NCBI RefSeq assembly: GCF_017377795.1 | Contig: NZ_JAFRDR010000007.1 | Span: forward strand, 124,001-188,000 | Reading direction: 5' to 3' | DNA length: 64,000 bases | DNA from: Williamsia soli | Lineage (GTDB): Bacteria; Actinomycetota; Actinomycetes; Mycobacteriales; Mycobacteriaceae | In this document: positions 23,202 through 44,899 of the stretch, piece after piece | How the letters are laid out: each line of letters opens with the position of its first letter | Numbering within the stretch: position 1 is the stretch's first letter | The notes under the pieces: model-generated | Seen by the model: only the letters and a program-made list of their open reading frames with translations | Database searches by the model: none | What the model was told of the DNA's origin: nothing | Translations under genes and position numbers: made by a program

Positions 23202-23251
23202 GGGTGGGGTTCCTTGCGCTGGGATGGGTTGACATGCAGGGGTGGAGCCCC

Positions 23252-23286
23252 GGGGGCAGCGTGGCGCGTGCGACCACACTGCCCCC
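23252..23286 (-). terminator. Hairpin in the prmA-prmB intergenic region
   Basis: GGGGGCAG (23252-23259) pairs with CTGCCCCC (23279-23286), and GTG/CAC inside extends the stem after a mismatch. The 138-bp gap between prmA and prmB is unusually long for this operon. The hairpin may attenuate read-through or stabilise the 3' end of a prmA message, giving more large subunit than reductase. Confidence 0.6.
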
Positions 23287-23339
23287 GAGTCCTGGGTAGG
23301 CGCCCGGCACCGGCAGGGGCAGACCCGCCGGCGAGGGGA

Positions 23340-25001: not shown

Positions 25002-25093
25002 CGCGATCCTCCTCGTTCAAGCACGCGGGCTGTCGGTGGAGGGAGTTGTCAGCTCCCTGTGATCGATGACACACCGGCTAGGATGGCAAGGCC

Positions 25094-25125
25094 GTCTCAT
25101 TGTGAGACTCGTCTCATTTAGAGAC
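25094..25125. promoter_or_regulatory. Two operator palindromes between prmA and its regulator gene
   Basis: GTCTCATTGTGAGAC (25094-25108, perfect 6-bp arms) and GTCTCATTTAGAGAC (25111-25125) lie 17 bp apart centre to centre in the 186-bp gap. On the minus strand TTGCCA (25089-25084) follows as a possible -35 for prmA. On the plus strand TACTAT (25131-25136) is a possible -10 for the regulator gene, so the operators would cover its -35 region and could mediate autoregulation. They are probable MimR-type binding sites. Confidence 0.7.
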
Positions 25126-25187
25126 GCTTCTACTATCGGCAGTAGGCCGAATGGCGTGGTTCGGTCCCGGAGGTGAGCGTCGGAAAC

Positions 25188-26998: not shown

Positions 26999-27712
26999 TC
27001 AGTTCGGAACGGTCGACGGGGTCCGGACGACGGTGAACGTGATGCTGGACCGTAAGACGAAGCCGAGGTGTTTGTAGAGCTCGATGGCATTGGTGTTGGT
27101 CGCGGCGGCGTGGAGGAAGGGGGTCTCGCCGCGGGCGTAGATGCCATCGGCAACCGCGAGCACCAACCGTGTGGCAAGCCCTTGCCCGCGGAACTCGGCA
27201 TCGGTGCACACCGCGCTGATCTCGGTCCAGCCGGGCGGGTGCAGCCGCTCGCCTGCCATCGCGATCAGCTTTCCCTCCCGTCGAACGCCGAGATAGGTTC
27301 CCAGTCGGTAGGTTTCGGGAAGAAAAGGACCGGGCTCGGTGCGGGCGATGAGGGCGAGCATGTCCTCTACGTCGTCGGCGCCGAGTCGGATCGCCTCATC
27401 GAAGGGCCTGGGCTTCACGGCGTCGGTGGCGATCATCTGCACACCGGGACCACTGACGACCACCAGCCATCCTTCGGGGAGGCTCGCGACGTCACGGGGG
27501 ACTGCGACTTCCTGGCTCGGCCCTACGAGCTGGGCGAGTTCGGTCCAGGTGCGCGGATCGTCGATGTCGTTGATGCCGACGAACGGTGCGATCGTGGGGA
27601 GGTAGCGGCGTGCACGGTCGGTACCTTCGGTCAGGTGGGCGTGCGCCCCGGTCATGCTCGCCCAGATGGCGTTCTCGAGTACTGCGTTGTCGGGCAGTGC
27701 TTGTGCGGTCAT
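26999..27712 (-). CDS. GNAT-family N-acetyltransferase, last gene of the SAM-IV-controlled operon
   Basis: This 237-residue protein has a C-terminal GNAT (FR47-like) domain with the acetyl-CoA loop RGQGLATRLVLAVADG and the AATNTNAIELYKHLGF helix; the first 110 residues are a variable substrate-side domain. ATG at 27712 overlaps the stop of the upstream monooxygenase gene by four bases, so it belongs to the operon. In Bacillus subtilis sulfur-salvage operons (ytm, yxe) a GNAT enzyme N-acetylates S-substituted cysteines before a flavin monooxygenase attacks them; an equivalent role here is inferred, not shown. It is convergent with the monooxygenase regulator, 44 bp apart. Confidence 0.82.
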   Translation of the reverse strand: MTAQALPDNAVLENAIWASMTGAHAHLTEGTDRARRYLPTIAPFVGINDIDDPRTWTELAQLVGPSQEVAVPRDVASLPEGWLVVVSGPGVQMIATDAVKPRPFDEAIRLGADDVEDMLALIARTEPGPFLPETYRLGTYLGVRREGKLIAMAGERLHPPGWTEISAVCTDAEFRGQGLATRLVLAVADGIYARGETPFLHAAATNTNAIELYKHLGFVLRSSITFTVVRTPSTVPN

Positions 27713-28881
27713 CGGTCGGCCCACTCCTTGGCGATCAGTTCGTACGAGCGCACGCGTGCTTCGTGGTCGTGGGTGATGGTCGTGATCGAGATCTCGGACG
27801 CGCCGGTCGCATCGCGTAGCTGTTCGAGTTTGTCGGCAACCGTCTTCGGAGATCCGACGAATTGGGTGAGCACGCGGTCTCGGACCAGTTCGCGGTCTTC
27901 GTTGGTCCATTCCAGGGCCGCGGCCTCGGCGGGGGTCGGAAACGGGATGGCGCCCTCGCCGCGCCGGATGCTCCGCACCCAGGGTGCGTAACCGCTGGCG
28001 AGTTCCGTTGCCTCCTCGTCGGTTTCGGCGATGACCGCGTCGACCGACACCGCGACATACGGTTCGGGCACGTCCGTCGAGGGCTTGAAGGCGGCGCGGT
28101 ACGCGTCGACGGCGTCGATGACGGTGCTGGGACTGTGGTGATAGCTGGCCACGAACCGCAGACCCTTCGTGCCTGCCACGGTGGCGCTGGATCCGCCGGA
28201 AGCGCCGAGGATCCACACCTGGACGTCCGCCCCTTCGCCGGGCGCCGCGTGGGCGGGCAGTCCTTCAGGGCTCACATAGCTCCCGTCGAGCAGAGCGAGG
28301 ACAGTGGAGATCTGGTCGTCGTAGCTCGGCGCGTATGCACCGGGTTGCTGCAGGAGATTCAGCAGATGTGCGACGGCGTCACTGGAGAACGCGGAAGAGA
28401 TGTCGAACTGCTTGGGCAGCAGCAGACCATTCGGGGTGTAGCTGTCCTCGTCATGGGCCGAGCCGCCGCGAGAGGCGAGATAGCCCTTTCTGGCGCCCTC
28501 GGTCACGGACTCCTCGCCGGAATCGACCTTCGGCTCCGGCCGCGAGATCGACCGCCCGATACCGAGATCGAGGCGCCCGGGGTAGAGCGAATTGATGAGT
28601 CCGAACTCCTCGACCGTCGCCAGCGGGGAACGGTGACCGAATTGCACGCCGGCCGAACCCAATCGGATGGACGATGTCGACCCGGCGACCAGGGCGATCT
28701 CCACCGCGGGCGACGAACCGATGACGCCGGGGTTCAGATGATGTTCGGCGAACCAGTAGCGGGCGTACCCAAAACGCTCGGCCTGTTGCGCGAGGTCGAT
28801 GGTGTTCCGCAAGGCGGTGGCGTTGTCGGAGCCGCTCGAGCGCGGCAGTAGATCGAGGACGGACAGCGGAATGGGTCCCAT
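27709..28881 (-). CDS. LLM-class flavin-dependent oxidoreductase (luciferase-like, MsnO/YwcH-type)
   Basis: This 390-residue protein has a luciferase-like TIM barrel beginning IPLSVLDLLPRSSGSDNATA, with the YWFAEHHL motif and the SSIRLGSAGVQF strand that are standard in the single-component-looking LLM group. Enzymes of this family use FMNH2 from a separate reductase to oxygenate small molecules. It differs from the two upstream monooxygenases, which are of the NtaA/SnaA type. ATG at 28881 has an AGGAG ribosome site seven bases upstream; longer in-frame extension runs into the upstream gene. No flavin reductase is encoded in the operon, so FMNH2 must be supplied from elsewhere. Confidence 0.85.
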   Translation of the reverse strand: MGPIPLSVLDLLPRSSGSDNATALRNTIDLAQQAERFGYARYWFAEHHLNPGVIGSSPAVEIALVAGSTSSIRLGSAGVQFGHRSPLATVEEFGLINSLYPGRLDLGIGRSISRPEPKVDSGEESVTEGARKGYLASRGGSAHDEDSYTPNGLLLPKQFDISSAFSSDAVAHLLNLLQQPGAYAPSYDDQISTVLALLDGSYVSPEGLPAHAAPGEGADVQVWILGASGGSSATVAGTKGLRFVASYHHSPSTVIDAVDAYRAAFKPSTDVPEPYVAVSVDAVIAETDEEATELASGYAPWVRSIRRGEGAIPFPTPAEAAALEWTNEDRELVRDRVLTQFVGSPKTVADKLEQLRDATGASEISITTITHDHEARVRSYELIAKEWADR

Positions 28882-28891
28882 GGGGAGTCTC

Positions 28892-30286
28892 CTAGGTGGT
28901 GGTCGACGCGTGGGCCGGCAGGTTGTCGTGTGGCCATGGCCGAGCTTGGGCGGTCGGCAGTCCGAGGTTCTCGCGCAGCGTCGCGCCGGTGTATTCCGTA
29001 CGGAAGACTCCGCGCTCCTGCAATTCTGGCACGACCTTGGCCGCGAACTCGTCGAGTCCGGACGGGGTGAGGTGGGGCGCGAGGATGAAACCGTCGGCGG
29101 CGTCGGTCTGGACCCGGTGGTTGATCTGCTCGGCGACCTCGGCCGGTGTCCCGATGAACGACTGCTTGGCACTGACCTCGACGACCAGCTCGCGGATCGA
29201 CAGGTTCTTGGTCTCGGCCCGGTGTCGCCATTCCTCGATCACGGCGGTCGGATCCTTGATGATCCTGCTCTTGCCCTGGACGATCGCCGGTGCCTCGAGT
29301 TCGGGCCCGATGTCTGGTAAGGGGCCGTCGGGATCGTATGAGCTCAGGTCGCGATTCCAGATCTCCTCGATGAACCCGATCGCGGTCGCGCCGCTGACCT
29401 GCTGGCTCCGGATCGCTGCGGCGTTCTCCTGTGCCTCGTCGGTGGTGTCGCCGAGGGCGAACGTGGCGGCCGGAAGAATCAGCAGATCGTCATGGGTGCC
29501 GCCGATCGCGACCTTGCGGGCCTTGAGTTCGCGGTAGTACCTGCGGGATTCGTCGATGTCGCGCACCAGGGTGAAGATCCCGTCGGCGTATGCGCCGCCG
29601 AAATCTCGACCGGCCTCGGAGTCGCCCGCCTGCAGGATCACCGGATAGCGCTGCGGGCTGGCAGGGACAGAGAACTGCCCCTGGACATCGAAGTGCTCGC
29701 CGTGGTGGCTGAAGGCGCCGGTGTCCGGGTCGTTCCAGAACCTGCCCTGCTCGCCGTCGGCGATCACCGCGTCGGTGGGCCATGAATCCCACAAGGTCCG
29801 AGCGACATCGAGCAGTTCGGCGGCCCGTGTGTAGCGGTCCTCGTAGGCCAGGTAGCCGCCGCGCCGGAAGTTCTCGCCCGTGAACGCATCCGACGACGTG
29901 ACGAGGTTCCATCCCGCACGTCCACCCGAGAGGTGATCGAGACTCGCGAATTGCCGGGCCACTTCATAGGGCTCGTTGAAGGTTGCGTTGATGGTGCCGA
30001 TCAGGCCGATGTCGGTCGTCACGGCGGCCAGCGCGGCGAGCACCGGCAGAGTGTCGGGACGGCCGACGACGTCGAGGTCGTGGATCAGGCCCTTCTTCTC
30101 GCGGAGGCGCAGTCCCTCCGCGAGGAAGAAGAAGTCGAACTTCGCGGCTTCGGCGGTCTTCGCGAGATGCACGAAACTGCTGAATTCGATCTGGCTGCCA
30201 GCCCGCGGGTCACTCCACACCGTGGTGTTGTTGACCCCGGGAAACGCGGCCCCCAGACGCACCTGCTTGAGCGGCCTGCCTGTCAT
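28892..30286 (-). CDS. NtaA/SnaA/DszA-family flavin monooxygenase
   Basis: This 464-residue FMNH2-dependent monooxygenase carries family signatures AAFPGVNNTTVWSDP, FDFFFLAEGLRLRE, GTINATFNEPYEVARQFASL and GWNLVTSSDAFTGENFRRGG. Relatives oxygenate NTA, sulfones (DszA) or N-acetyl-S-alkylcysteines (B. subtilis YtnJ/YxeK). Set under a SAM riboswitch, a C-S or sulfur-side oxygenation is the most economical reading, but the substrate is not proven. ATG at 30286 overlaps the preceding LLM gene by four bases. A closely similar paralogue, in the same gene order, lies at 43550-44899. Confidence 0.85.
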   Translation of the reverse strand: MTGRPLKQVRLGAAFPGVNNTTVWSDPRAGSQIEFSSFVHLAKTAEAAKFDFFFLAEGLRLREKKGLIHDLDVVGRPDTLPVLAALAAVTTDIGLIGTINATFNEPYEVARQFASLDHLSGGRAGWNLVTSSDAFTGENFRRGGYLAYEDRYTRAAELLDVARTLWDSWPTDAVIADGEQGRFWNDPDTGAFSHHGEHFDVQGQFSVPASPQRYPVILQAGDSEAGRDFGGAYADGIFTLVRDIDESRRYYRELKARKVAIGGTHDDLLILPAATFALGDTTDEAQENAAAIRSQQVSGATAIGFIEEIWNRDLSSYDPDGPLPDIGPELEAPAIVQGKSRIIKDPTAVIEEWRHRAETKNLSIRELVVEVSAKQSFIGTPAEVAEQINHRVQTDAADGFILAPHLTPSGLDEFAAKVVPELQERGVFRTEYTGATLRENLGLPTAQARPWPHDNLPAHASTTT

Positions 30287-31488
30287 GACACCTCTGATGA
30301 TGTTGCGTACCGCGAGCGGGGTCGCTCCAAGCCGAGATGGCCCCTCAGTGTGGTGGCCGAGTAGCCATGTGGACGTAGGCCGCGGTGTTGCAGCTCCGGG
30401 ACCAACGCGTCGCTGATCAGCGGCAGATCGATCGCGTTGCTTGCCGGCCGCAGGCGGATGCCGTCGAGGCCTGCCGTCGTCCACGCCTCGATCAGATCTG
30501 TCAGCTCCGACGGCGTGCCGGTGAAGATGTCCGCGTCCGAGGCCAGCGGTTCACCGGACAGTTCGTCGAGGCGATGCAACCGGTCGACCGCGCGTTCCCG
30601 GTCGGGATCCAGCACCACGACGAGATCGCCGAACACCTGTGCAGGCGGTGTGTTTCGTCCCGAGGCTGCGGCGAGGTCAACGATCTCGGCACTCACTGAA
30701 CGGACGTCCGCATTGCTGCGCGGCGTGAACCAGATCAGATCTGCGACGGACACACCGAGCCGATAGACGTCCGTCGAGTGCGCCAGGACGCCGACGATCG
30801 GTTGTCCTTGCGGCGGACGAGGAACCGTCAACGGACCCTTCACCGAGAAGTGTTCACCCTGGAAGTCGATGTAGTGCAACTTGCTCCGGTCGATGAACCG
30901 TCCGGTGGACTGGTCGCGGATCTCGGCGTCGTCCTCCCAGCTGTCCCAGAGCCTGTGCAGGACTTCGCCGTAGTCGATTGCCTCGTCGAAGGCCTTGGTG
31001 ATGAACGAGGTGTCCGAGGCGGCTTTCAATTCGGAGAGCGTCAGTTCAGGAATGTCGCGGCGGCCGAACAGTCTCGCCTCTGTGCCCGTCACGCCGACCT
31101 TGAGTCGCACGCCTGACCGGCCGGAGCTGACGAAGTCGAGAGTCGCGATCGCTTTCGCCAGGTGAAATGGTTCGGTGTGCGTGACCACTGCGGTGGGTAT
31201 CAGGCCGATGTGTTTGGTACGGGGTGCAATACGCGATGCTATGAGTACCGAGTCCAGCCTCCCACGAACCCGGTCGGTGCGCGGGACCGGTGGACCGTAG
31301 GTCTCCGATTGCAGGGCCAGGGTGTCGTCGATGGTGACGAAATCGATCAGCCCACGCTCCGCGGTCTGTGCGAGCTCGACCCAGTATCCGGGATCGGTCA
31401 GGCGCTTGGCATTCTCGGTGTCCTCCCGCCAGGCCGCCGGATGCCAGCCGACACCGTCGAGGGCGACGCCGAGGTGTAGCTGTGTCAT
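30283..31488 (-). CDS. LLM-class flavin-dependent monooxygenase, partner of the NtaA-like enzyme
   Basis: This 401-residue luciferase-fold protein starts TQLHLGVALDGVGWHPAAWR and contains LIDFVTIDDTLAL, HTEPFHLAKAIATLDFVSSG and HYIDFQGEHFSVKGPL. It ends with the LVPELQHRG...TLRGHLGL pattern shared with the NtaA-like group. It always appears next to the NtaA-like gene here: a paralogue of both sits at 43550-46119 in the same order, suggesting that the two monooxygenases act on one substrate or form a complex. The start overlaps the stop of the GST-like gene by four bases. Confidence 0.83.
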   Translation of the reverse strand: MTQLHLGVALDGVGWHPAAWREDTENAKRLTDPGYWVELAQTAERGLIDFVTIDDTLALQSETYGPPVPRTDRVRGRLDSVLIASRIAPRTKHIGLIPTAVVTHTEPFHLAKAIATLDFVSSGRSGVRLKVGVTGTEARLFGRRDIPELTLSELKAASDTSFITKAFDEAIDYGEVLHRLWDSWEDDAEIRDQSTGRFIDRSKLHYIDFQGEHFSVKGPLTVPRPPQGQPIVGVLAHSTDVYRLGVSVADLIWFTPRSNADVRSVSAEIVDLAAASGRNTPPAQVFGDLVVVLDPDRERAVDRLHRLDELSGEPLASDADIFTGTPSELTDLIEAWTTAGLDGIRLRPASNAIDLPLISDALVPELQHRGLRPHGYSATTLRGHLGLERPRSRYATSSEVS

Positions 31489-32375
31489 CGGGCGACGCCC
31501 ACTGGGCTCTGCCAGTCTGCGACCACCGAGTCGCCGCCGAATGAACTGAAATCGGTGGTCTTGGTGAACGCCTCGATGGCGTAGAGGTCGCGGGCGTAGC
31601 GCCAGAGTTCGCCGAACTCGGACAGTCGGGGCGAGCCAGTTCGGGCGGCCGCGGCGTCGTAACGCACCAGCGTCACGAACAGCCGGACATCGGCCAGGGT
31701 CACGTCGTCACCGAGGAGAAACCGGCTGCCCTGCAAACGATTGTCGAGTTGTGTGAAGGCTTTCTGGAGAGTCTCCGCAGCCTCTGCTGCCGCCGGACTG
31801 TCACTCGTCGCCACATGGGCAGTGCTGTTGACGTCGGCCCGCAGCCAGGTCTCCAGCTCGTCGATCTGCGAACGCAACGCGGTCGGGTACAGCTCGACCC
31901 CACCGTTCGCGGCAACGTCGTACTGCGACGACAGGTCGGCGTCGAGGGTGGCGAAGTCGTTGCTGACGACCTTCCCGGTCTCCCGATCCCAGAGCGTCGG
32001 GACCGAGACATGACCATCGAAGTCGGGCTCGGTGAGGTTGTAGGCCTCGCGTAGCAAGGTGAAGCCGTTGACGGGGTCGGGGCCGTAGGTCTCCCGGAAT
32101 GCCCACCCACGCGCATCACGCTTCCCGTCGACATAGCTGACACTGACGATGTCGGAGAGTCCGGCCAGTTCGATGACCAGCGTGACTCGTTGTGCCCACG
32201 GGCAAAACCAGCCCGAGTAGACGTGGTAGCGATCGGCGACGGCCGGATAGGGCGTGGAGCCGTCGTTGCTGATCCGTCCGGTGAAACGGTAGAGCGGGCG
32301 GGTGTCTTCAGGAGTTTGCTTGATCGTGTACTCGCCGTGGGTCGCGGTATCGGCGGGGCTGGCGTAATTCGGCAT
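31485..32375 (-). CDS. Xi-class glutathione-S-transferase-like / thiol-hydroquinone reductase family protein
   Basis: This 296-residue protein has a thioredoxin-like N domain with the catalytic cysteine C58 in YSGWFCPWAQRVTLV, then a GST C-terminal helical domain with the DVTLADVRLFVTLVRYD motif. This is the ECM4/YqjG group, glutathionyl-hydroquinone reductases, which reduce mixed thioethers. Actinobacteria use mycothiol rather than glutathione, so the thiol partner is uncertain. In this operon it could reductively cleave an S-adduct or mixed disulfide produced by the monooxygenases, which is an inference. It is the sixth gene of the operon, two bases after the oxidase gene. Confidence 0.82.
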   Translation of the reverse strand: MPNYASPADTATHGEYTIKQTPEDTRPLYRFTGRISNDGSTPYPAVADRYHVYSGWFCPWAQRVTLVIELAGLSDIVSVSYVDGKRDARGWAFRETYGPDPVNGFTLLREAYNLTEPDFDGHVSVPTLWDRETGKVVSNDFATLDADLSSQYDVAANGGVELYPTALRSQIDELETWLRADVNSTAHVATSDSPAAAEAAETLQKAFTQLDNRLQGSRFLLGDDVTLADVRLFVTLVRYDAAAARTGSPRLSEFGELWRYARDLYAIEAFTKTTDFSSFGGDSVVADWQSPVGVAR

Positions 32376-32377
32376 GG

Positions 32378-33508
32378 TCAGAGCACCTTTTCTGCAGAAT
32401 GGCTACGGAATGAGAACAGCGCGGGGGCGTCTTTGTCGATGGTGAGGTCGGCCAGCAGTCTGCCGATGGCGGGAACGAACTTGAAGCCGTGGCCGGAGAA
32501 GCCGGCGGCGACGGCGACCGGGCCGACTCGGTCGATCACGAAGTTGGAGTCGGGCGTGGTGGCGTAGGTGCAACTGATCGGTGTCATCGCGTCGGCGTCG
32601 ACACCGGGAACCCATTCTCGGACGTACTCCTGGAGTGCGGCGAGCTGGCGTGGTTCGGCGGTGAAGTCGCGGTGATCGGGATCGACGACGGGGCCGACTC
32701 CATGGAATCCGACCTTGACTCCTTCGAGTCCGGACGAGAGCCCGTAGACTCCACCGAACTCGGGGGCATCGGGCGCTTCGGGGTCGTGCAGGATTCCGAA
32801 GCTGGGCCAGTCGGCGGCGGGGTCGCGTGGTGCGAAATGGGCAGGTTGTTCCTGGGTGACGCGGATCGGGGGTAGCGGTGCGATGTCCCGGAGGAGCTTG
32901 TCGGCCCATGCCCCGACCGCAACCACCACCCGCCGCGCGATGTACTCATGGTCGGCGGTGCGCACGGTGACGGAATCGTCGTCTGTGACCTCGATCGATA
33001 TCACCTGCGATTCGTGTCTGACTTCGGCACCACGGTTGGCCGAGGCCTGTTGCAGCGCCGCCACCGCATGGTCGGCGTGCAGTCGCCCACTGTTCGGGTA
33101 GTACAACGAGCGACCGGAAAATGTGATTCCCGGCCACCGTTCGGCCGCTTCGTCGGGGCTCAGCCACTGGTGGTCTACACCCAGGTCAGCGAGGGTGTCG
33201 GCAATTTGAATCAGGTAGGGCGTAAATCCCTGGTCGACGCCACCGGTGACCGTGAGGAGCGGCGACCCCGACTCGCTTTCGAGTTCCGCCCACTGTTGCT
33301 CGGCTTCGCGCGCCAACTCGACATAGGTGCGGTCGGCGTAGGACGTCCGGAAGATGCGGGAGCTGCCGTGGGAGGCGCCGTTGGTGTGGCCGGGGGTGAA
33401 GCGTTCGAGCAGCACGGTGTCGACGCCGCGGCGGGCGAGGTGCCAGGCCGCGGCTGACCCCATGGCGCCACCTCCGACGACGACGGTGTCCACGCGGGTG
33501 GCGCTCAT
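32378..33508 (-). CDS. Monomeric sarcosine oxidase/SolA-like FAD-dependent amine oxidase
   Basis: This 376-residue DAO-family flavoprotein has the N-terminal dinucleotide motif VVGGGAMGSAAAWHLARRG, then GASHGSSRIFRTSY, and C313 in SCTYATTPD, the position of the covalent 8alpha-S-cysteinyl FAD in monomeric sarcosine oxidase. Such enzymes oxidise N-methyl or secondary amino acids to imines, releasing hydrogen peroxide. Here it may process the amino-acid portion of the imported compound. ATG at 33508 overlaps the ATPase stop by four bases; it precedes the GST-like gene. The substrate is not known. Confidence 0.87.
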   Translation of the reverse strand: MSATRVDTVVVGGGAMGSAAAWHLARRGVDTVLLERFTPGHTNGASHGSSRIFRTSYADRTYVELAREAEQQWAELESESGSPLLTVTGGVDQGFTPYLIQIADTLADLGVDHQWLSPDEAAERWPGITFSGRSLYYPNSGRLHADHAVAALQQASANRGAEVRHESQVISIEVTDDDSVTVRTADHEYIARRVVVAVGAWADKLLRDIAPLPPIRVTQEQPAHFAPRDPAADWPSFGILHDPEAPDAPEFGGVYGLSSGLEGVKVGFHGVGPVVDPDHRDFTAEPRQLAALQEYVREWVPGVDADAMTPISCTYATTPDSNFVIDRVGPVAVAAGFSGHGFKFVPAIGRLLADLTIDKDAPALFSFRSHSAEKVL

Positions 33509-35190
33509 ATGCCCGTTCCCACTTTCTCGGTGGCGCGTTGTTTTTCGAGGGTGGGTATGGCTGCGAGGAGCGCGCGGGTGTAGTCGTCGGTGGGGTTGTT
33601 GAAGATCTGTTCGACGGTGCCGGTTTCGATGGCTCGGCCGTCTTTCATGACCAGGACGCGGTCGGCGACGTGGTAGATGACGCCGAGGTGGTGGGAGATG
33701 AAGACGTAGGCGATGCCGAGTTCGGCTTGTAGGTCGGCGAGGAGGTCGAGGATTTGGGCTTGGATGGAGACGTCGAGGGCGGAGACGGGTTCGTCGCAGA
33801 TGATGATGTCGGGTCGGGTGGCCAGGGCGCGGGCGATGGCGACGCGTTGGCGTTGTCCGCCGGAGAGTTGGCGGGGACGGCGGCCGAGGTGGTCTTTGCT
33901 GAGGCCGACGAGTTCGAGTTGTTCGAGGACCCGGGTGCGGCGGTCGGCGCGGTTGATGCCACCGGCGGCCAGGAGGGGTTGCTCGATGATGCGGGCGACG
34001 GTGTGTCGGGGGTCGAAGGAGCTGAGGGGATCTTGGTAGATCACCTGAATGTTCTGGCGGGTCGCGCGCACTTCTTTGTCGGACAACGATGTCCAGTCGT
34101 TGCCGCCGACGTGAACGCTGCCGTCGTCGGGTGTCTCGAGGTGCAGGAGTAGGCGGGCGATGGTGGATTTGCCGGATCCGGATTCGCCGACGATGCCGAG
34201 GGTTTCTCCGCCGTGGACGGTGAGGCTGACGTTGTCGACGGCGCGCAGTCGGCGGTTGCCGGACAACGCGAAGTGTTTGGTGAGGTTGTCGGCCTGCAGG
34301 ACGACGTCTTTCGAGATCGGTGCGCGGGTCAGCTTCTGAACGCCGCCCGTGGAGGACAGGCGGGTGCCGCGGGCGTGGGCGACGGGGACGGCGTCGAGGA
34401 GCTGGCGGGTGTAGGCGTGGTGGGGGTTGTTCAGGACGTCGCGGGTGGGTCCGTGTTCGACGAAGACACCGTCTTTCATGACGTAGAGGTAGTCCGAGAC
34501 GCGGGAGACGACGGCGAGGTCGTGGGAGATGAGTAGCAGCGCGGTGCCGTCGCTGCGGCGTTGTTCGAGGAGTTCGAGGATTTGGGCTTGGACGGTGACG
34601 TCGAGGGCGGTGGTGGGCTCATCGGCGATGAGCAGGTCGGGGTCGGCGGCGATCGCGGAGGCGATGAGGGCGCGCTGGCGCAGTCCGCCGGAGAGTTGGT
34701 GGGGGTATTGGCCGGCGCGCAACTCAGGTTCGGGGATACCGACTTTGGTCAGTAGTTCGATGACCCGGGCGTCGACGTCGCTGCGTCCGACAACCCGGTG
34801 AGTGCCCAGTACCTCGCCGATCTCGGCGCCGATGGTGCGTAGCGGGTCGAGGGAGACGAGGGCGTCTTGTAGGACGAACCCGACCTGTTTGCCGCGTAGG
34901 GCGCGCCAGTGCCGCTCGGAGTATTTTCGGGTGTCGGATCCGCCGACCTGCAGGCGGTCGGCCCGGACGTGGGCGTTACCGCCGATCAGTCCGACGAGGC
35001 TGCGGGCGGTGACGCTTTTGCCCGAGCCGGATTCGCCGACGATCGCGACGGACTGTCCGCGGTCGATGGTGAAGGAGATGCCGTCGACGGCGGCGATGGT
35101 GCGGGCGCCGGAGGGGAAGCCGACGCGCAGGTCCTCCACCTCGACCAGTGGGCCGGCGGTCGGGGAGGTCTTTGTGGTGAGGGTGGTCAT
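33505..35190 (-). CDS. Peptide/nickel-type ABC transporter ATPase, DppD-DppF fusion
   Basis: This 561-residue protein has two complete ATPase domains: Walker [10 protein letters not shown] and GESGSGKST, signatures LSGGLRQR and LSGGQRQR, Walker [11 protein letters not shown] and [10 protein letters not shown]. It powers the importer made by the next-upstream permeases and binding protein. Each half ends with an oligopeptide-transporter C-terminal region ([19 protein letters not shown] and [17 protein letters not shown]). ATG at 35190 overlaps the permease stop by one base (TGATG); extension to 35340 runs inside the permease gene. Confidence 0.92.
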
Positions 35191-36146
35191 CACGAGGTCC
35201 GTCCGTCGGTGCGTCGTTGCAGGTATTGGCCGACCACGGTCACCGACAGCACTGTCAGGGTGATGGCGAGGCCGGGGAAGATGGCGGGCCACCAGGCGAC
35301 GGAGAAGTAGGTGCGGCTGGCCGAGAGCATGCTGCCCCATTCGGCGGTGGGTGGTTGGGGACCCAGGCCCAAAAAGCTGAGGGAGGAACCGATTCCGATG
35401 GCCGAGCCGATGCCGATGGTCGCCAGGACCAGGACGGGTCCGAGGGCGTTGGGGATGATGTGGCGGCCGATGATGTTGGCCTGGGTCCAGCCAAGGGCTC
35501 TGGCTGCTTCGACGAACACGGCTCCGCGTAGGCGGATCACTTCGCCGCGGACGAGTCGGGCGTAGCTGGGCAGCGTCACGACAGCGACGCCGATGATGGT
35601 GGTGAGGGTGCCGGGTCCGCGGGCGGCGACGATCAGGAAAACCAGTAGCAGGCCGGGGATGGCCAGGAAGACGTCGAGCAGACGGGACACCACCCAGTCG
35701 CCGGTGCGGCCGCCGCGGGCGGCGAACACCCCGATCGCGGTGCCGGCGATGAGTGCGAACACTGTTGCGCTGACGCCGATCAGCAGTGAGGGCCAGGCGC
35801 CGTAGATGATGCGGGCGTAGATGTCGCGGCCGTTCTGATCGGTCCCGAACAGGTGTTCAGCGCTGGGTGCGAGGAGCATGTCCAGTGGTTCCCCGGCGTT
35901 GGGGTCTCGACCGGTGAACAGCGCCGGGAAAAATGCGGCCACGGTGATGGCGGCGATGAAGATGCCACTGAGGATGACCGAGATCCGCAGACGCCTGATC
36001 CGCTGCACCACAGTCTGGCTGGCAGCAAATCGTACGGCCGGTGCGGGGTCGAGCTCCGCTTCGCTTCGTCTCCGCGGTACGGGGTCGAGCTTCGCTTCGC
36101 TTCGTCTCCGCGGTGCGGGGTCGGGCAAGATGTCAGGCGTGGTCAT
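35190..36146 (-). CDS. Peptide-type ABC transporter permease (DppC-like)
   Basis: This 318-residue permease has about six membrane segments, the LFGTDQNGRDIYARIIYGAW motif of the OppC/DppC group and the EAARALGWTQANIIGRHIIPN cytoplasmic (EAA) loop. The N-terminal cytosolic tail contains two and a third tandem copies of a 12-residue repeat (RRRSEAxLDPxP) that arises from a 36-bp DNA repeat at 36040-36123; most relatives lack it. It works with the DppB-like permease, ATPase and binding protein. Both ends overlap neighbours. Confidence 0.9.
   Translation of the reverse strand: MTTPDILPDPAPRRRSEAKLDPVPRRRSEAELDPAPAVRFAASQTVVQRIRRLRISVILSGIFIAAITVAAFFPALFTGRDPNAGEPLDMLLAPSAEHLFGTDQNGRDIYARIIYGAWPSLLIGVSATVFALIAGTAIGVFAARGGRTGDWVVSRLLDVFLAIPGLLLVFLIVAARGPGTLTTIIGVAVVTLPSYARLVRGEVIRLRGAVFVEAARALGWTQANIIGRHIIPNALGPVLVLATIGIGSAIGIGSSLSFLGLGPQPPTAEWGSMLSASRTYFSVAWWPAIFPGLAITLTVLSVTVVGQYLQRRTDGRTS
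36040..36123. repeat. 36-bp in-frame tandem repeat, 2.3 copies
   Basis: The unit starts GGTGCGGGGTCGAGCTCCGC and ends CTTCGTCTCCGC; copies are at 36040-36075, 36076-36111 and a partial at 36112-36123, differing at only two positions. It adds 12 residues per unit to the permease N-terminal tail without breaking the frame. Confidence 0.9.
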
Positions 36147-37156
36147 CCGGTCACCTTCCCTTCAGTGGTTGCGGACGAGCTCTGGGTGCGTAAGCGGGGG
36201 TCGAGCCAGCCGTACGCTGCGTCGATCAGGGTGTTGACGATGGTGTAGAACGTGGCGGCGATGATGACCACGCCGAGTACAAGTGGCAGGTCCTTTCCGG
36301 TGACCGCAGCAATGGTCAAGCGGCCCAGTCCTTCTCGGGAGAAGACCTGTTCGACCACGACGGCGCCGCTGATCAGCGCTCCGATGATCCAGCCCCACAA
36401 CGTGATCACCGGCATTGCCGCGTGCCGGAGCACATGGCGCAGCAGCACGACGGTCTCGTCGACCCCGCGGGAGCGGGCGGTGACCACGAACGGTTCATCC
36501 AGGGTTTTCTCGACGCCGTGGCGCAGCACTTGCGAGAGCAGGGCGGCCGGCGCTGCCGCCAGCGCGATGGCGGGCAGCACCAGCGAGGACATGCCGTCGG
36601 AGCCGACGGAGGGAAACCAACCCAGCTCGAACGAGAAGATCGTCAGCAGCAGGATGCCCAGCCAGAACGTGGGTACAGCCACGGTCAGCACTTCCAGGGA
36701 GGTGATCGGGCCGCGGATCCAGCCGGGGCGGTTGGCTGTCGCCAAGCCGACCACCAGAGCGGTCACCAGCGAAAGGAATGCGGCAACGATCACCAATTGC
36801 AGTGTGGGCCAGATCTGCCCGCCGATGGCCTCGGTGACCGGCATCCGCAGTGCGTAGGACTGGCCGAGGTCGCCGTGCAGCAGACGCCACAGGTAGTTCC
36901 CGTACTGGGTCAGGATCGGATCGTCGAGCTTGTAGTCGCTGATGATCTGGGCTCGGACCTCGGGGGAGACCTGGGCGGTCCCGATGATCGAGTTGATCGC
37001 CGAACCCTTGCCGGAGTGGATCACGATGAAGGTGGCAGTGATCGCGCCCCACAACACCAACAGCGAGACGGCCAACCGGCGGGCGACCGCCCGGCCGAGA
37101 GTCCGAGTGCGCGGAATCTCGGTCGGGACAGCCGCCGTTTCGATCACCACAGTCAT
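36143..37156 (-). CDS. Peptide-type ABC transporter permease (DppB-like)
   Basis: This 337-residue permease has about six membrane segments. It has the OppB-type opening (ARRLAVSLLVLWGAITATFI), the periplasmic LDDPILTQYGNYLWRLLHGDLGQS segment and the EAA loop VVTARSRGVDETVVLLRHVL. It forms the channel with the DppC-like permease. ATG at 37156 overlaps the binding-protein stop by four bases. Confidence 0.9.
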   Translation of the reverse strand: MTVVIETAAVPTEIPRTRTLGRAVARRLAVSLLVLWGAITATFIVIHSGKGSAINSIIGTAQVSPEVRAQIISDYKLDDPILTQYGNYLWRLLHGDLGQSYALRMPVTEAIGGQIWPTLQLVIVAAFLSLVTALVVGLATANRPGWIRGPITSLEVLTVAVPTFWLGILLLTIFSFELGWFPSVGSDGMSSLVLPAIALAAAPAALLSQVLRHGVEKTLDEPFVVTARSRGVDETVVLLRHVLRHAAMPVITLWGWIIGALISGAVVVEQVFSREGLGRLTIAAVTGKDLPLVLGVVIIAATFYTIVNTLIDAAYGWLDPRLRTQSSSATTEGKVTG

Positions 37157-38817
37157 TGCGTGACCCAGGCGTCATAGAACGTCGGGAACGCCTGCGGCTC
37201 GAACTTCACACCCTGCACGTTGTTGCTGCGGCCGAGTGCGTAGTTGAAGACGTACACCGGGAAGACTGCAGCGTCGTCAGCGATCTGCTGCTGGGCGCGG
37301 CCGTAGATCGCCGACTGCTTGGCCAGGTCGGTCTCGGCCAGTGCTGCCTTGAGGTCGGCGTCGACGGTCGGGTTCGAGTATCGCGCAAGATTGGTACCGA
37401 AAGAGTCTCTCGGGATGTTGCTCGAGTCCGACAGCGTGCGGAGCGCATCAGGTGAGGCGCGTTGCCAACTGATGTCCAGTACGTCGTATCCGTTGGTGTA
37501 CAGCGCCGTGTAGAAGTCATCGACGGTGATGTTCTTGATCTGGTAATCGGCGCCGAGTTTCTTGGCCGACGATTGCACCTGCTCGAGCAGGGTGTCGCGC
37601 TGTTCACGGGCGTACTCCTTGAGGAAAGGGTGTACGACGGTGAGACGCTTGCCGTTCTTGGTGCGGTATCCCTCGCTGTCACGTCCGGTCCAGCCGGCTT
37701 CGTCGAGGAGCTGGTTGGCCTTGTCCTCGTCGTAGGTGTAGGCGGACTCGCTGTCCTTGTTGTAGCCGACGGTGGCCGGGCTCAGAGTGTTCTTCGCGGG
37801 CTGGAAGACACCGAAGTACAGCTTGTCGACGATGGTGTCCCAGTCGATGCCGGCGCGGAAGGCCTCGCGGACCTTGACGTCGGCGAAGACACCGGCCTCG
37901 GTGTTGGGATAGTAGTTGTAGTTGCCGCCGGGTGCCTGGGCGGTGTCGACGGTGAACCCGGGGGTGTCCTTCAGCTGGGAGACGTTGACCGGCGGCACGC
38001 TGGCGATCGCGTCGACCTGGTTGCTGGTCAGTGCGCCGTAGCGGGACGAGTCCTCGGGGATCTCCTGGATGCTGATCCCCGCCAGGTGCGCCTTTCCGGT
38101 GTGGTCGGCGTTGCCCGGACCCCAGTTGTAATCCTCGTTACGGGTGTACTCGATGCCCTTGTTCGGGGTGTAACCGTTCTCGCTCACGAACGGTCCGGAT
38201 CCGATGATCCTGCTGCACAGCGCATCCGGACTCTGGGTGAGGGTCGACGGCGCCTCGATGCCGAGATACGCCGTGGCCAGCGAGGGGAGGAACGCCGAGT
38301 TCGGTTCGGAGAAGCTGACCTCGACGTGGGTGGGGTCGATGACGTTGGTTCCGGTATACGTGGCAATGGTGTTGGCGGCCAGTTGCGACTTGGTGGCCGG
38401 ATTGACGATGTGGTCGAGGTTCGCCTTGACCGCGTTGCCGTCGAACTTCTCTCCGTTGGAGAACGTCACGTCATCACGCAGCGTGAACGAATAGGTGAGC
38501 TGATCGGGCGAAACGCTCCATTCGGTCGCCAGCCACGGATCGAGCGTGCCGTCCTCGTTGAGCGCGACCAGCGAATCGAGGATCGGCCGGGTGTAGAAGC
38601 CGGCGATATCGGCTGGACTCTGATGCGGATCGATGCAACCGCCCGGACCCGACGCACTGGCGAACCGCAATGTCCCGCCGTCGACGGGATCGCCCGTGGC
38701 GGTTGCCGACTCGCTGCTGTTCCCCGAGCTACAGGCGCTGGCGATGAGTCCGATCGAGACGGCAGCGAGGACGGCGGCCTGCGATCGGTGTCTGAAGCGA
38801 CCGGGTGGTCGGGACAT
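37153..38817 (-). CDS. SBP_bac_5 substrate-binding lipoprotein of the peptide-type ABC importer
   Basis: This 554-residue extracellular binding protein has a cleavable lipoprotein signal: RRHRSQ-like basic start, hydrophobic AAVLAAVSIGLIASAC lipobox, then a Ser/Thr-rich linker. The mature part has the family 5 features LRFASASGPGGCIDPHQS, YSFTLRDDVTFSNGEKFDGN and LDISWQRASPDALRTL. Ligands of this family include peptides, opines, nickel chelates and glutathione, so a sulfur-containing peptide or conjugate is plausible given the riboswitch. ATG at 38817 has AGGAGAG seven bases upstream; the extension to 38847 lacks one. First gene of the operon. Confidence 0.9.
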   Translation of the reverse strand: MSRPPGRFRHRSQAAVLAAVSIGLIASACSSGNSSESATATGDPVDGGTLRFASASGPGGCIDPHQSPADIAGFYTRPILDSLVALNEDGTLDPWLATEWSVSPDQLTYSFTLRDDVTFSNGEKFDGNAVKANLDHIVNPATKSQLAANTIATYTGTNVIDPTHVEVSFSEPNSAFLPSLATAYLGIEAPSTLTQSPDALCSRIIGSGPFVSENGYTPNKGIEYTRNEDYNWGPGNADHTGKAHLAGISIQEIPEDSSRYGALTSNQVDAIASVPPVNVSQLKDTPGFTVDTAQAPGGNYNYYPNTEAGVFADVKVREAFRAGIDWDTIVDKLYFGVFQPAKNTLSPATVGYNKDSESAYTYDEDKANQLLDEAGWTGRDSEGYRTKNGKRLTVVHPFLKEYAREQRDTLLEQVQSSAKKLGADYQIKNITVDDFYTALYTNGYDVLDISWQRASPDALRTLSDSSNIPRDSFGTNLARYSNPTVDADLKAALAETDLAKQSAIYGRAQQQIADDAAVFPVYVFNYALGRSNNVQGVKFEPQAFPTFYDAWVTQ

Positions 38818-38951: not shown

Positions 38952-38971
38952 GGGTTCGCATGTGTGAACCC
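38952..38971 (-). promoter_or_regulatory. Probable expression-platform hairpin of the minus-strand SAM-IV riboswitch
   Basis: Read on the minus strand, GGGTTCACA and TGCGAACCC form a nine-pair stem (one mismatch) around a two-base centre. Its 5' arm begins in the GCGCGGG strand that ends the riboswitch, so aptamer folding and this hairpin compete. The start codon is about 135 bp further downstream, so control is more likely at transcription than at the ribosome site. Confidence 0.45.
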
Positions 38972-39086
38972 GCGCTTGCTCCATGCCCGTTGCGGACTGG
39001 AGCCGTGTCTTTTATCCAGGGCACCCCGCCGCGGTGGAGGGTTGCCGACCAGCCAGCTGGAACTTGGCACTGGTACTCGTTGACAC
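38967..39086 (-). ncRNA. SAM-IV riboswitch controlling the organosulfur-type ABC/monooxygenase operon
   Basis: On the minus strand the aptamer begins with GTGTCAACGAG and its P1 partner GACAC. The conserved core GGTCGGCAACCCTCCACCGC followed by GGCGGGGTGCCC is the SAM-binding four-way region, and the 3' pseudoknot strand reads GCAAGCGCGGG. These match the published SAM-IV consensus known almost only from Actinobacteria. It lies 150 bp upstream of the binding-protein ATG, in the leader of the ten-gene operon. SAM-IV RNAs switch sulfur-metabolism genes off when S-adenosylmethionine is plentiful. Confidence 0.92.
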
Positions 39087-39296: not shown

Positions 39297-39408
39297 GGTC
39301 ACGAGTATCAGCGCACAGCCCCGGCTTGCTGATCGGCAACCCTCCACCGCGGCGGGGTGCTCCGGGTGATGACCTGGCCGTCTCGAACCTGAGCCGGCAA
39401 GCGCGGAC
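39297..39408 (+). ncRNA. SAM-IV riboswitch controlling the SufS-like cysteine desulfurase gene
   Basis: The aptamer starts GGTCACGAGTATCAGC and pairs with GTGATGACC (39365-39373) to form P1. The core GATCGGCAACCCTCCACCGC and GGCGGGGTGCTCCG match SAM-IV closely, including the CCCCGGCTTGCTG hairpin; the 3' pseudoknot strand is GGCAAGCGCGGAC. A small hairpin CGGAC/GTCCG (39404-39420) overlaps the 3' strand and may be part of the switch. A TAGCAT -10-like box lies about 8 bp upstream (39284-39289). The next gene starts at 39487. Confidence 0.94.
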
Positions 39409-39486
39409 CCCCCACGTCCGGTAATCGCAGTTCCGTTCTGCGACCCCTGTGCGTGGTGGTGTCCAACGAGACACCGGAGGAAGACA

Positions 39487-40698
39487 TTGAGTATCGCGAC
39501 AGAACTCGCTCGTGCGGCGAAAGCCATTGCAGAGGTAGAAGGTTCGGACCTGCAAGCACCATTGGCCGATGGTTCGACCACTCGCTACGTCAACTTCGAC
39601 TACGCGGCCAGCGCGCCGGCACTCCGAAGCGCCGTCACGCGGATCCACGAGTTGTTGCCGACCTATTCGAGCGTCCATCGGGGCGCCGGGTACGCCTCGC
39701 AGGTCACCACACAGGCGTATGAGGACGCCCGGGCAGTCGTGACGGAGTTCGTCGGAGCCGCCGGAGACCAGTGCCTGGTCTTCACCCGCAACACCACCGA
39801 CTCCTTGAATCTGTTGGCCGGCTGCGTGCCCGGCCCGGTGGTGGTCCTGGACATCGAACATCATTCGAACCTGTTGCCGTGGAAACAGTCCCACGTTGTC
39901 CAGGCCGGCGACAGCATCGGCGAAACGATCGCGCGGGTGGACATCGAGCTACAGCGTACGGGCGCAGCCCTGTTGGCGGTAACGGGTGCATCCAACGTCA
40001 CCGGGGAGATCCTGCCGATCCGCCGGCTCGCCGATCTGGCACATTCGAGGGGCGCGCGAATCGTGGTCGACGGTGCTCAGCTCGTTCCTCATAGGAGGGT
40101 GTCCCTGGCCGCCGACGGCATCGACTACCTGGCCTTCTCCGGCCACAAGGTGTACGCGCCGTTCGGCGCAGGTGTGCTGGTCGGCCGGCGGGATTGGCTC
40201 GATGCCGCGGCGGCTTACTTGGCCGGAGGGGGTGCGGTCCGCAACGTCACGGTCGATCGAACGGAGTGGGCTCCTGCGCCTGCCCGCCACGAAGGTGGAT
40301 CGCCCAACGTCCTCGGCGCGGCCGCGTTGGCGGCGGCGTGCCAGGAGATCAATTCTCTCGGAGATGCGGCGGCGCAGCATGAATCGGCGCTCACCGACCA
40401 TTTGCGCTGGGGTCTCGCCGACATCCCAGGCGTTGAGGTGCTGAAGATTTTTCACGACGTCGTGGACTCGGTCGGTGTCGTCAGCTTTGTTGTCGAAGGT
40501 CATCGGGCGGTAGATGTGGCGCGGTATCTGTCCACAGAACACGGCATCGGGGTGCGGGACGGCCGGTTCTGCGCTCATCCGCTGCTGGGCCGACTAGGCC
40601 ACGGCGACGGAGCAGTTCGGGCCAGCCTTGGCCTGGGCTCGAGTTCCGCCGACGTCGAGGTGCTGCTGTCCGCGCTCGCGCGGTACGCCGCCCGGTGA
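39487..40698 (+). CDS. SufS/CsdA-like class V aminotransferase (cysteine desulfurase-like)
   Basis: This 403-residue PLP enzyme has the cofactor lysine K221 in AFSGHKVYAPFG, the EHHSNLLPW histidine that stacks on PLP, and C362 in VRDGRFCAHPLL, the catalytic sulfur-accepting cysteine position of group II cysteine desulfurases. It could release sulfur or sulfide from cysteine or a cysteine derivative. The start is TTG at 39487, backed by GGAGGAAG five bases upstream. It is transcribed from a SAM-IV riboswitch leader and is not next to suf genes, which points to a sulfur-assimilation rather than a general Fe-S role. Confidence 0.85.
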   Translation: MSIATELARAAKAIAEVEGSDLQAPLADGSTTRYVNFDYAASAPALRSAVTRIHELLPTYSSVHRGAGYASQVTTQAYEDARAVVTEFVGAAGDQCLVFTRNTTDSLNLLAGCVPGPVVVLDIEHHSNLLPWKQSHVVQAGDSIGETIARVDIELQRTGAALLAVTGASNVTGEILPIRRLADLAHSRGARIVVDGAQLVPHRRVSLAADGIDYLAFSGHKVYAPFGAGVLVGRRDWLDAAAAYLAGGGAVRNVTVDRTEWAPAPARHEGGSPNVLGAAALAAACQEINSLGDAAAQHESALTDHLRWGLADIPGVEVLKIFHDVVDSVGVVSFVVEGHRAVDVARYLSTEHGIGVRDGRFCAHPLLGRLGHGDGAVRASLGLGSSSADVEVLLSALARYAAR

Positions 40699-43549: not shown

Positions 43550-44899
43550 TCAGACTCCCGCGACCGCAGACCGGGTCAGCCCGAGGTGATCGCGCAGGGT
43601 CTCGCCCTCGTACTCGGTGCGGTAGACGCCCTTTTCCTGCAGGAGGGGGACGACCGTGTCCGCGAACTCGTCGAGCCCACCCGGGGTGATGTGCGGGACG
43701 AGGATGAACCCGTCGCTGGCGTCGGCCTGGACGAAGTCGTTGATCGTGTCGGCCACGGTCTGTGGCGAACCGATGAACGACTGCCGGCCGGTGACCTCGA
43801 TGATCAGTTCCCTGGTCGTCAGGTTCTCGGCTTCGGCCCGCGCCCGCCATTCGGCCGCGACATCGCGCGGATCGCGGTGGATCCGGACACTGGCCCGGCC
43901 CTTCGCGACGGTGTTCTCACCGGGCAGCGGATCGATGGTCGGTAGCGGACCATCGGGGTCGTGGTCGGAGAGATCGCGGTTCCACAATTGCTCGAGGAAC
44001 TTGATCGCCGTCTGACCACTGACCTGCTGGAGCCGGATCTCGTGCGCGCGCTCGGCAGCGTCGGCATCGGTGTCGCCGAGGACGAACGTCGCGGCGGGCA
44101 AGATCAGCAGATCGCCGTGGCTGCGGCCGTACGTCGCGAGCCTGCCCTTGACGTCCTTGTAGAACGCCTGGCCGTCGTCGAGAGTCGAGTGCCGGGAGAA
44201 GATGGCGTCGGCCCGCGCGGCAGCGAACTCGCGGCCGTCCTCTGAATCGCCTGCCTGAAAGATGACCGGGCGTCCCTGGGGACTGCGCGGGACATTGAAC
44301 TGACCGGCGATGTCGAACTGATCGTCGGAGTGGGCGAACGATCCGACGTCGGGACGGCGCAGAAAAGTTCCTGACTCCTTGTCGGCGACGATGTCGTCGG
44401 CCTGCCAGGAGTCCCAGAGTTCAATCGCGACCTCCAGGAATTTCCTGGCCCTGCCGTAGCGCTCGTCCTTGGGCAGATAGCCGCCGCGACGGAAGTTCTC
44501 GCCGGTGAACTCGTCCCATGAGGTGACGACGTTCCACGCCGCCCGGCCGTCTGTGAGGTGGTCGAGGCTGGCGAACTGGCGGGCCACCTCGTAGGGCTCG
44601 TTGAAGGTGGAATTGATGGTGCCCGTCAGGCCGAGCTTGTCGGTGACGGCCGCCAGTGCCGCGAGGATGGTGAAGGTGTCCGGGCGCCCCACGACGTCGA
44701 GGTCATAGATCACGCCGTTCTGTTCGCGCAGACGCAGACCCTCTGCCAAGAACAGGAAGTCGAACTTGGCGCGTTCGGCGGTCTTGGCGAAATGGGTGAA
44801 CGAGTCGAACTCGATGTGACTGCCCGCGGCCGGGTCGCTCCAGACCGTGGTGTTGTTGACTCCGGGGAAATGTGCAGCCAGGTGAACTTGCTTGGTCAT
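43550..44899 (-). CDS. NtaA/SnaA-family flavin monooxygenase, paralogue of the 28892-30286 enzyme
   Basis: This 449-residue LLM-class enzyme aligns over its full length with the riboswitch-operon enzyme: AHFPGVNNTTVWSDPAAGS, FDFLFLAEGLRLRE, TINSTFNEPYEVARQFASLD and FTGENFRRGGYLPKDERY. It needs FMNH2 from a separate reductase. The ATG at 44899 overlaps the upstream LLM gene stop by four bases, the same arrangement as in the other copy. No SAM-IV aptamer precedes this pair, so its regulation has diverged. The substrate is probably an organosulfur or amine compound related to that of the first pair; this is inference. Confidence 0.85.
   Translation of the reverse strand: MTKQVHLAAHFPGVNNTTVWSDPAAGSHIEFDSFTHFAKTAERAKFDFLFLAEGLRLREQNGVIYDLDVVGRPDTFTILAALAAVTDKLGLTGTINSTFNEPYEVARQFASLDHLTDGRAAWNVVTSWDEFTGENFRRGGYLPKDERYGRARKFLEVAIELWDSWQADDIVADKESGTFLRRPDVGSFAHSDDQFDIAGQFNVPRSPQGRPVIFQAGDSEDGREFAAARADAIFSRHSTLDDGQAFYKDVKGRLATYGRSHGDLLILPAATFVLGDTDADAAERAHEIRLQQVSGQTAIKFLEQLWNRDLSDHDPDGPLPTIDPLPGENTVAKGRASVRIHRDPRDVAAEWRARAEAENLTTRELIIEVTGRQSFIGSPQTVADTINDFVQADASDGFILVPHITPGGLDEFADTVVPLLQEKGVYRTEYEGETLRDHLGLTRSAVAGV

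Follow-up and report, generated by a model that had tools for sequence, protein, structure and literature searches.

The locus described here lies in a stretch of 64,000 nucleotides from Williamsia soli (the window, which always means the whole stretch) and centers on a ten-gene operon at positions 26999 to 38817, headed by an aptamer of the SAM-IV family, which senses S-adenosylmethionine (SAM). We re-derived the open reading frames (ORFs) and found ten on the minus strand, running from 38817 to 26999, all co-directional and without internal stops (Table 1). Neighboring genes overlap by 4 bases at seven of the nine junctions, if GTG 35193 is taken as the start of the ATPase gene, and the other two junctions are gaps of 2 and 10 bases. 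The close packing, the riboswitch ahead of the operon, and the peptide-type importer named in a preliminary description of this DNA were all recovered. After the importer genes, which encode a substrate-binding protein (SBP) and ATP-binding cassette (ABC) subunits, come genes for a sarcosine oxidase-like flavoprotein, a xi-class glutathione S-transferase (GST), three proteins of the luciferase-like monooxygenase (LLM) superfamily (LLM_short, LLM_NtaA, and LLM_Msn), and a Gcn5-related N-acetyltransferase (GNAT).

Table 1. Features of the ten-gene operon and its surroundings, with positions in the window
Feature	Position	Strand	Supporting match
SAM-IV aptamer heading the ten-gene operon	38967..39085	-	RF00634 85.9 bits, gathering 38
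SBP, family 5, peptide/nickel class	37153..38817	-	PF00496 244 bits
ABC permease B	36143..37156	-	PF00528
ABC permease C	35190..36146	-	PF00528
ATPase, two fused ABC domains	33505..35193	-	PF00005 x2, PF08352 x2; start GTG 35193 or ATG 35190
Monomeric sarcosine oxidase-like flavoprotein	32378..33508	-	PF01266 204 bits; 1zov 214.8 bits
Xi-class GST, CPWA motif, probable mycothiol-type thiol transferase	31485..32375	-	Solved relatives, motif table
LLM_short, CmoJ-related, degenerate flavin mononucleotide (FMN) site, proposed partner subunit	30283..31488	-	YtnJ 152 bits
LLM_NtaA, CmoJ/YtnJ-like FMN monooxygenase	28892..30286	-	TIGR03860 408 bits, over cut-off; 1yw1/6ask 281 bits
LLM_Msn, MsnO8-family LLM, CmoO candidate	27709..28881	-	TIGR03558 289 bits, over cut-off
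GNAT N-acetyltransferase	26999..27712	-	PF08445 + PF00583
Second, divergent SAM-IV aptamer heading the SufS-like gene	39297..39409	+	RF00634 107.7 bits, gathering 38
SufS-like class V aminotransferase/cysteine desulfurase	39487..40698	+	PF00266; TIGR01979 267 bits, under cut-off 475
Second LLM_NtaA/LLM_short pair, paralogous to the operon pair	43550..46119 (matched stretches 43577-46101)	-	64% and 53% identity

Both aptamers in the window scored well above the gathering threshold of the RF00634 covariance model, and 149 bases lie between the first of them and the start of the SBP gene. The whole genome holds three SAM-IV matches, the third of which precedes a gene that we take, from its translation, to encode an O-acetylhomoserine sulfhydrylase (metY-like). 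SAM-IV control is known for methionine synthesis. A search for an expression platform behind the two window aptamers gave folds no more stable than those of shuffled sequences (z of 0.43 and -1.07). The SAM-IV elements would put the operon under sulfur-linked control, with repression when SAM is abundant. The gene set, its SAM-IV leaders, the kinship of LLM_NtaA with CmoJ, and the recurrence of the set are all read directly from the sequence. The scarcity of SAM-IV (three matches in this genome), the leaders, and the CmoJ kinship support the view that the operon represents an actinobacterial form of the CmoO/CmoJ salvage of S-substituted cysteines, made when SAM is low; we put the chance that this view is right, SAM control included, at roughly two in three.

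Among solved structures, the best relatives of LLM_NtaA were the Bacillus subtilis YtnJ/CmoJ entries (281 bits), of which 6ask is named "CmoJ (earlier YtnJ)" in the structure list, followed by a Burkholderia NtaA protein (269 bits), DszA/BdsA (222 bits), and DmoA (162 bits). The operon thus encodes the CmoJ-type NtaA-family monooxygenase of the B. subtilis ytm route, together with an MsnO8-family LLM and a GNAT (PF08445/PF00583), and the parallel with ytm drawn in the preliminary description holds. The MsnO8 family (TIGR03558) also matched in 10 of 14 control genomes, B. subtilis among them, with 7 over cut-off. Both systems also have an importer, a thiol-active protein, and sulfur-linked control. 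Unlike ytm, the window has an extra, degenerate LLM, a sarcosine oxidase-like gene, and a peptide-class importer, and its control element is SAM-IV, whereas ytm in Bacillus is under protein regulators. In the published route, S-alkylcysteine is N-acetylated, sulfoxidized by CmoO, and cleaved by CmoJ to a sulfenic acid and an aldehyde, with reduction and deacetylation to follow; the route is reported to be widely distributed among soil bacteria (PMC10863075). The B. subtilis scm (yxe) system for S-(2-succino)cysteine likewise combines N-acetylation with a subsequent FMN-dependent monooxygenase (PMC12757645), but it has one monooxygenase and a linked deacetylase, while the window adds a candidate sulfoxidation-type LLM. 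To the preliminary description the system, as an actinobacterial one, looked undescribed. This needs narrowing: the CmoO/CmoJ route itself is known in soil bacteria (PMC10863075), and it is the SAM-IV-led actinobacterial version of which we recognized no description in the literature, as covered mostly by listings and by open-license texts. The database records that we saw label the set simply as LLM class, NtaA/DmoA, or MsnO8 family oxidoreductases.

The LLM genes are compatible with other kinds of sulfur source. The operon might serve sulfonates, thioether xenobiotics, or sulfones, with its LLMs acting like SsuD, DszA, or SfnG; these belong to the same superfamily, and DszA/BdsA and DmoA are related to LLM_NtaA. 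Sulfur-repressed oxidoreductases of this kind are already suspected in pollutant and fuel desulfurization (PMC7661421 and PMC8557817). NtaA and LLM genes of Gordonia respond to a fluorotelomer sulfonate (PMC7661421). Other published observations we count in favor of the salvage of S-substituted cysteines. In Gordonia NB4-1Y, the NtaA genes RS14155 and RS14730 showed no expression on MgSO4, and LLM genes numbered close to them were expressed on organosulfur (PMC7661421). The sulfur proteins that change on dibenzothiophene in Rhodococcus qingshengii IGTS8 include the NtaA protein ScmK, a Tcy-type importer, and SoxA_1, which is next in number to the ScmK/Tcy rows (PMC8557817); in the table of that paper these rows appear to stand under the first part, which is headed as upregulated. 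Induction fails to name a substrate, since many such genes rise together in sulfur starvation. LLM_NtaA scored higher against CmoJ/YtnJ than against DszA or DmoA, and the GNAT, along with the polar-amino-acid importers of the relatives described below, fits amino-acid substrates. We therefore regard service to another organosulfur class as quite unlikely.

Parts of the gene set recur across actinobacterial families. A scan with LLM_short confirmed at least 590 places, the best 80 of which are treated here as named loci (loci and genomes carry L and G numbers). At thresholds of identity and coverage, LLM_NtaA was found in 77 of the 80, LLM_Msn in 36, the GNAT in 12, the GST in 8, the oxidase in 4, and the SufS-like gene in 2; more distant GNATs and GSTs are missed in these tallies because ORFs are cut at the thresholds. 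Two named loci came closest to the full set. The one in Hamadaea tsunoensis has SAM-IV, importer, oxidase, LLM_Msn, GNAT, LLM_short, and LLM_NtaA but no GST that passes the threshold; the one in Microbispora sp. H13382 lacks only the oxidase, its genes being divided between both strands, and no SAM-IV was found there. Approached from LLM_Msn, matches at 1e-90 occurred in 69 of 394 genomes of the class, and 28 of the 29 other listed loci were examined (G446 was left out). Of the stretches fetched for these 28 best other loci, 23 contained LLM_short, 22 LLM_NtaA, 12 the GNAT, and 2 a close GST. The preliminary description had proposed a search for conserved gene order in other Mycobacteriales; related sets extend through actinobacteria far beyond the genus. 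All ten genes were seen together in the window and in one further genome of the genus (L053). Within the genus, LLM_short matched at 1e-60 in eight of nine genomes, partly as the second pair, and the LLM pair, the importer, and the oxidase are each present in some members and absent from others (L049, L051, L052, and L054). In G303, six of the ten genes lie near a contig end (L050), with the SAM-IV pair and the SufS-like gene located on a different contig.

Several other features of these loci were recorded. Three kinds of extra gene recur in some named loci: a further LLM family in 27 loci (among them L130), a cluster in 7 loci whose member in L181 has a flavin reductase domain, and a cluster in 8 loci with DUF1684 in its L158 member. 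One contig labeled Candidatus Melainabacteria (L137) has counterparts of both LLM genes of the pair, 55% and 62% identical; it is perhaps misbinned or transferred.

SAM-IV recurs with the set as well. We built a model from ten aptamers and searched the 80 named loci and 45 other sources (125 in all). The named loci gave 15 matches of at least 75 bits in 12 loci, and none of these matches had been used for model building; eight of the loci are from Streptomyces, and the others are from Blastococcus, Hamadaea, Nakamurella, and Ornithinimicrobium. The 45 other sources gave 18 matches scoring 70 bits or more; 9 of the 18 had gone into the model, and several of the 18 come from one genus. From 70 bits upward there were thus 33 matches, and each was followed on its own strand, at a distance of 28 to 894 bases, by the matched stretch of an importer, LLM, GST, or SufS-like gene belonging to the set; weaker matches, five in the named loci and five in the other sources, all at or below 24 bits, were not counted. 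Given 62 matches over cut-off in about 286 Mb (43 whole genomes), approximately 0.34 matches would be expected in the named loci where 15 were seen, a rough ratio because the background used the Rfam model with stricter filters and the count used our own model. Related strains are not independent, and therefore the five named genera are the safer count. In 68 of the 80 named loci, no strong SAM-IV was found within the stretch fetched. Divergent SAM-IV pairs like that of the window occur in L113 (ahead of the SufS-like gene and LLM_Msn), in L181 (ahead of LLM_Msn and LLM_short), and in the window's genus. In L122, L130, and L092, two of which are Streptomyces, a distant GST-like gene (30 to 32% identity) follows its own SAM-IV near an LLM module. 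The Streptomyces order is SAM-IV, permease, ATPase, SBP_bac_3, GNAT, LLM_short, LLM_NtaA, LLM, and LLM_Msn. On a Streptomyces cadmiisoli plasmid (L208, 8685-8795), a feature annotated as "putative leader peptide" stands ahead of LLM genes; it may be another kind of sulfur-sensing attenuator that takes the riboswitch's place.

The preliminary description counted three LLM monooxygenases; three LLM proteins are indeed present, but only two look catalytic, the FMN site of LLM_short being degenerate. Its best solved relative was YtnJ (152 bits), with the NtfO1 chain (324 residues) lower at 103 bits, and its predicted model (mean predicted local distance difference test score of 78.3) has the LLM fold and is closest to 1yw1 (E of 5.2e-27). 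In BdsA, single mutation of V137, S139, R159, Y160, or L230 is reported to kill activity, and H156A to halve it (PMC5819316). By positions of the BdsA residues read by hand from an alignment, the equivalents of V137, R159, and Y160 were kept in all 77 LLM_NtaA sequences and in 0, 2, and 1, respectively, of 79 LLM_short sequences; the S139 equivalent was Ser in 73 of 77 and 56 of 79, and the equivalents of H156 and L230 (a backbone contact) were kept in neither protein. LLM_short and LLM_NtaA lie side by side on one strand in 75 of the 80 named loci, which had themselves been found via LLM_short; one exception, L148, ends at a contig end just past LLM_short. There is also precedent for a two-protein LLM. 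The homologues NgnO1 and NgnO2 of the NtfO1-NtfO2 pair are described as inactive alone, and FMN was assigned to NtfO2 by docking and mutagenesis (PMC8027225). NtfO1-NtfO2 and StmO1-StmO2 are heterodimeric LLM pairs (PDB 7e36), the Stm genes overlapping (PMC8027225); these proteins act in polyketide hydroxylation rather than on sulfur. From the lost FMN contacts, the adjacency, and the NtfO1-NtfO2 precedent, LLM_short is probably a non-catalytic partner of the CmoJ-like LLM_NtaA. Its retained fold and the strong conservation of residues peculiar to it (63 invariant columns listed for 13 sequences, an alignment that omits L107, which has a stop codon, and L113) would also suit an independent enzyme with another cofactor, such as F420, or another substrate, and this we consider somewhat unlikely against the lost contacts, the shared strand, and the heterodimeric precedent. 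As for the second pair (43577-46101), genus members without the operon pair still hold a similar LLM_short elsewhere.

The solved relatives of the GST are 4pts, 3m1g, and xi-class/glutathionyl-hydroquinone-reductase entries, and it carries the xi-class CPWA motif. Of 37 listed matches with at least 44% identity, 31 have CPWA or CPWS, 2 have CPYA, and 4 have CPCS or CPLS (overlapping loci are counted twice, here and in the SufS-like motif counts). A GST match at 1e-30 was present in 262 of the order's 298 searched genomes, counting the window's own; above 240 bits, it occurred in 7 of the 297 others, and the remaining matches reached at most 195.5 bits. In the window's genus, the GST is found in seven of nine genomes and the SufS-like gene in exactly those seven. 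In a wider cluster, GST-like proteins occur in 19 of the 80 named loci, 10 of them at 26 to 32% identity; the one in L184, at 61%, is below the coverage threshold. CmoI of B. subtilis is glutaredoxin-like; no such protein is encoded among the ten genes, where the xi GST is present instead. Because MstX of Corynebacterium glutamicum shares the CPWA motif and CmoI is glutaredoxin-like, we propose the xi GST as the sulfenate reductase. MstX, a xi-class protein from another mycothiol organism, is described as a mycoredoxin-like, mycothiol-linked thiol transferase, and also as a general stress enzyme (PMC6815410). This supports the thiol-transferase reading of the preliminary description; the operon GST is of a separate, rarer kind than MstX.

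The fifth gene had been called a SolA-like amine oxidase, and an amine-oxidase flavoprotein it is, although nearer to monomeric sarcosine oxidase (1zov, 214.8 bits) than to Escherichia coli SolA (134.1 bits). It scored 264 bits with TIGR01377, under the cut-off of 479.65, and 260.1 bits with the N-methyl-L-tryptophan oxidase model PRK11259, over the cut-off of 257. By what we take to be the correct numbering, its active-site residues match those of Bacillus monomeric sarcosine oxidase, a member of the same family. The Tyr254 equivalent presumably is kept too, so that a specialized enzyme for thioproline, hindered by this tyrosine, is disfavored. Bacillus sarcosine oxidase acts on thioproline with 0.17% of its efficiency on sarcosine, Tyr254 being the hindrance (PMC12582975), and cysteine and formaldehyde form thioproline spontaneously (PMC9814826). 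Thioproline as a substrate is a guess; the oxidase probably acts on a second class of cysteine adduct bearing a secondary amine. Unlike the Bacillus enzyme, the window gene sits in an operon under sulfur control. In Blastococcus, one SAM-IV heads a polar-amino-acid importer and then the oxidase gene. The Hamadaea oxidase is likewise part of a SAM-IV-led run. These arrangements tie the oxidase to sulfur control beyond the window's genus.

The SBP is of family 5, not of the Tcy (polar-amino-acid) type of the ytm route; its best NCBIfam model, TIGR04028, matched below cut-off, and its solved relatives are 5u4o and NikA. The preliminary description listed a different importer class among the departures from Bacillus. 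As a defining or novel feature we rejected it, since relatives carry both types: in the fetched stretches of the 80 named loci, polar-amino-acid importers occur in 21, peptide importers in 16, both in 3, and neither in 46. The Streptomyces versions have a polar-amino-acid importer, like Bacillus. Elsewhere in the window's own genome (L114, G000:C25:101001-121000), a peptide-class importer adjoins an MsnO8-type LLM (48% identity to LLM_Msn), which makes a reduced, paralogous form of the operon. The Cys motif of the SufS-like protein is kept in all 12 listed matches that reach it, and the pyridoxal phosphate Lys in all 13.

Assembled into a route, with a candidate from the window for every reaction as far as the sulfenic acid, the proteins would act as follows. 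The peptide-class ABC importer would take up cysteine S-conjugates or small peptides holding them, and the GNAT would N-acetylate the cysteine. LLM_Msn would form the sulfoxide, and LLM_NtaA with the FMN-degenerate LLM_short would cut the C-S bond to give an aldehyde and N-acetylcysteine sulfenate. The MstX-like xi GST would reduce the sulfenate or its mycothiol mixed disulfide, and an unlinked M20-type amidohydrolase would take off the acetyl group; outside the operon the genome offers two candidates for it, both TIGR01891 members over cut-off. The SufS-like enzyme would then hand on sulfur from cysteine in the direction of the metY-like enzyme and methionine, and the sarcosine oxidase-like protein would oxidize the second, secondary-amine class of adduct. 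Such a flow from cysteine to methionine may be the simplest reason for SAM-IV at these three genomic sites.

The same enzymes could mainly recycle the cell's own damaged thiols (mycothiol S-conjugates and mercapturates) rather than outside sulfur. A strong match to mycothiol S-conjugate amidase (Mca; 504 bits, cut-off 277) is encoded in the genome, and the products of Mca are N-acetylcysteine S-conjugates, that is, what CmoO and CmoJ act on. However, the operon includes an importer, and its switch is a sensor of SAM rather than of electrophile stress; we hold recycling as the main role to be unlikely. A more specific form of the S-substituted cysteine salvage is a SAM-IV-controlled cysteine-adduct regulon adapted to mycothiol, with a split CmoJ made up of catalytic LLM_NtaA and non-catalytic LLM_short, a mycothiol-dependent xi GST as sulfenate reductase, an oxidase that opens thiazolidine-4-carboxylates (cysteine-aldehyde adducts, including those from the CmoJ-released aldehyde), and SufS-like and metY-like enzymes carrying sulfur to methionine. 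Taken jointly, these specifics are tentative and, on balance, doubtful.

Several observations weigh against salvage of S-substituted cysteines. Family-profile scans of the ten operon genes found no flavin reductase and no deacetylase, hence no linked N-acetylcysteine deacetylase. The substrate and the order of the reactions are deduced from the gene set, LLM_Msn and the GNAT are candidates for the CmoO and SnaA equivalents by family membership, and the IGTS8 and Gordonia genes are likened to those of the window by description. The top scorer of the genome in the MsnO8 family (TIGR03558) is another gene (407.9 bits), not LLM_Msn. Few named loci pass the threshold for the close GST (8 of 80) or the oxidase (4 of 80), and 46 of the 80 have an importer of neither type, some being cut by contig ends. 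Five stretches fetched for the GST (L035, L036, L038, L041, and L042) contain none of the three LLM genes.

These data offer a likely function and regulator for a widespread actinobacterial set annotated only by LLM-type family names. If the salvage of S-substituted cysteines is correct, SAM-IV control would reach from methionine synthesis to organosulfur salvage. The operon also provides a test case for how a catalytic flavoprotein gains a dead partner and for which thiol chemistry stands in for glutaredoxin in mycothiol organisms.

Next to the operon, at 15898-26954 of the window, lies a cluster of the binuclear-iron monooxygenase type. For its GAF/Fis-type regulator, Pfam gives an AAA+ lid and no AAA+ core; its other genes encode two Phenol_Hydrox proteins, a reductase, an amidohydrolase, an FeS-assembly domain protein, an alcohol dehydrogenase, and a chaperonin.

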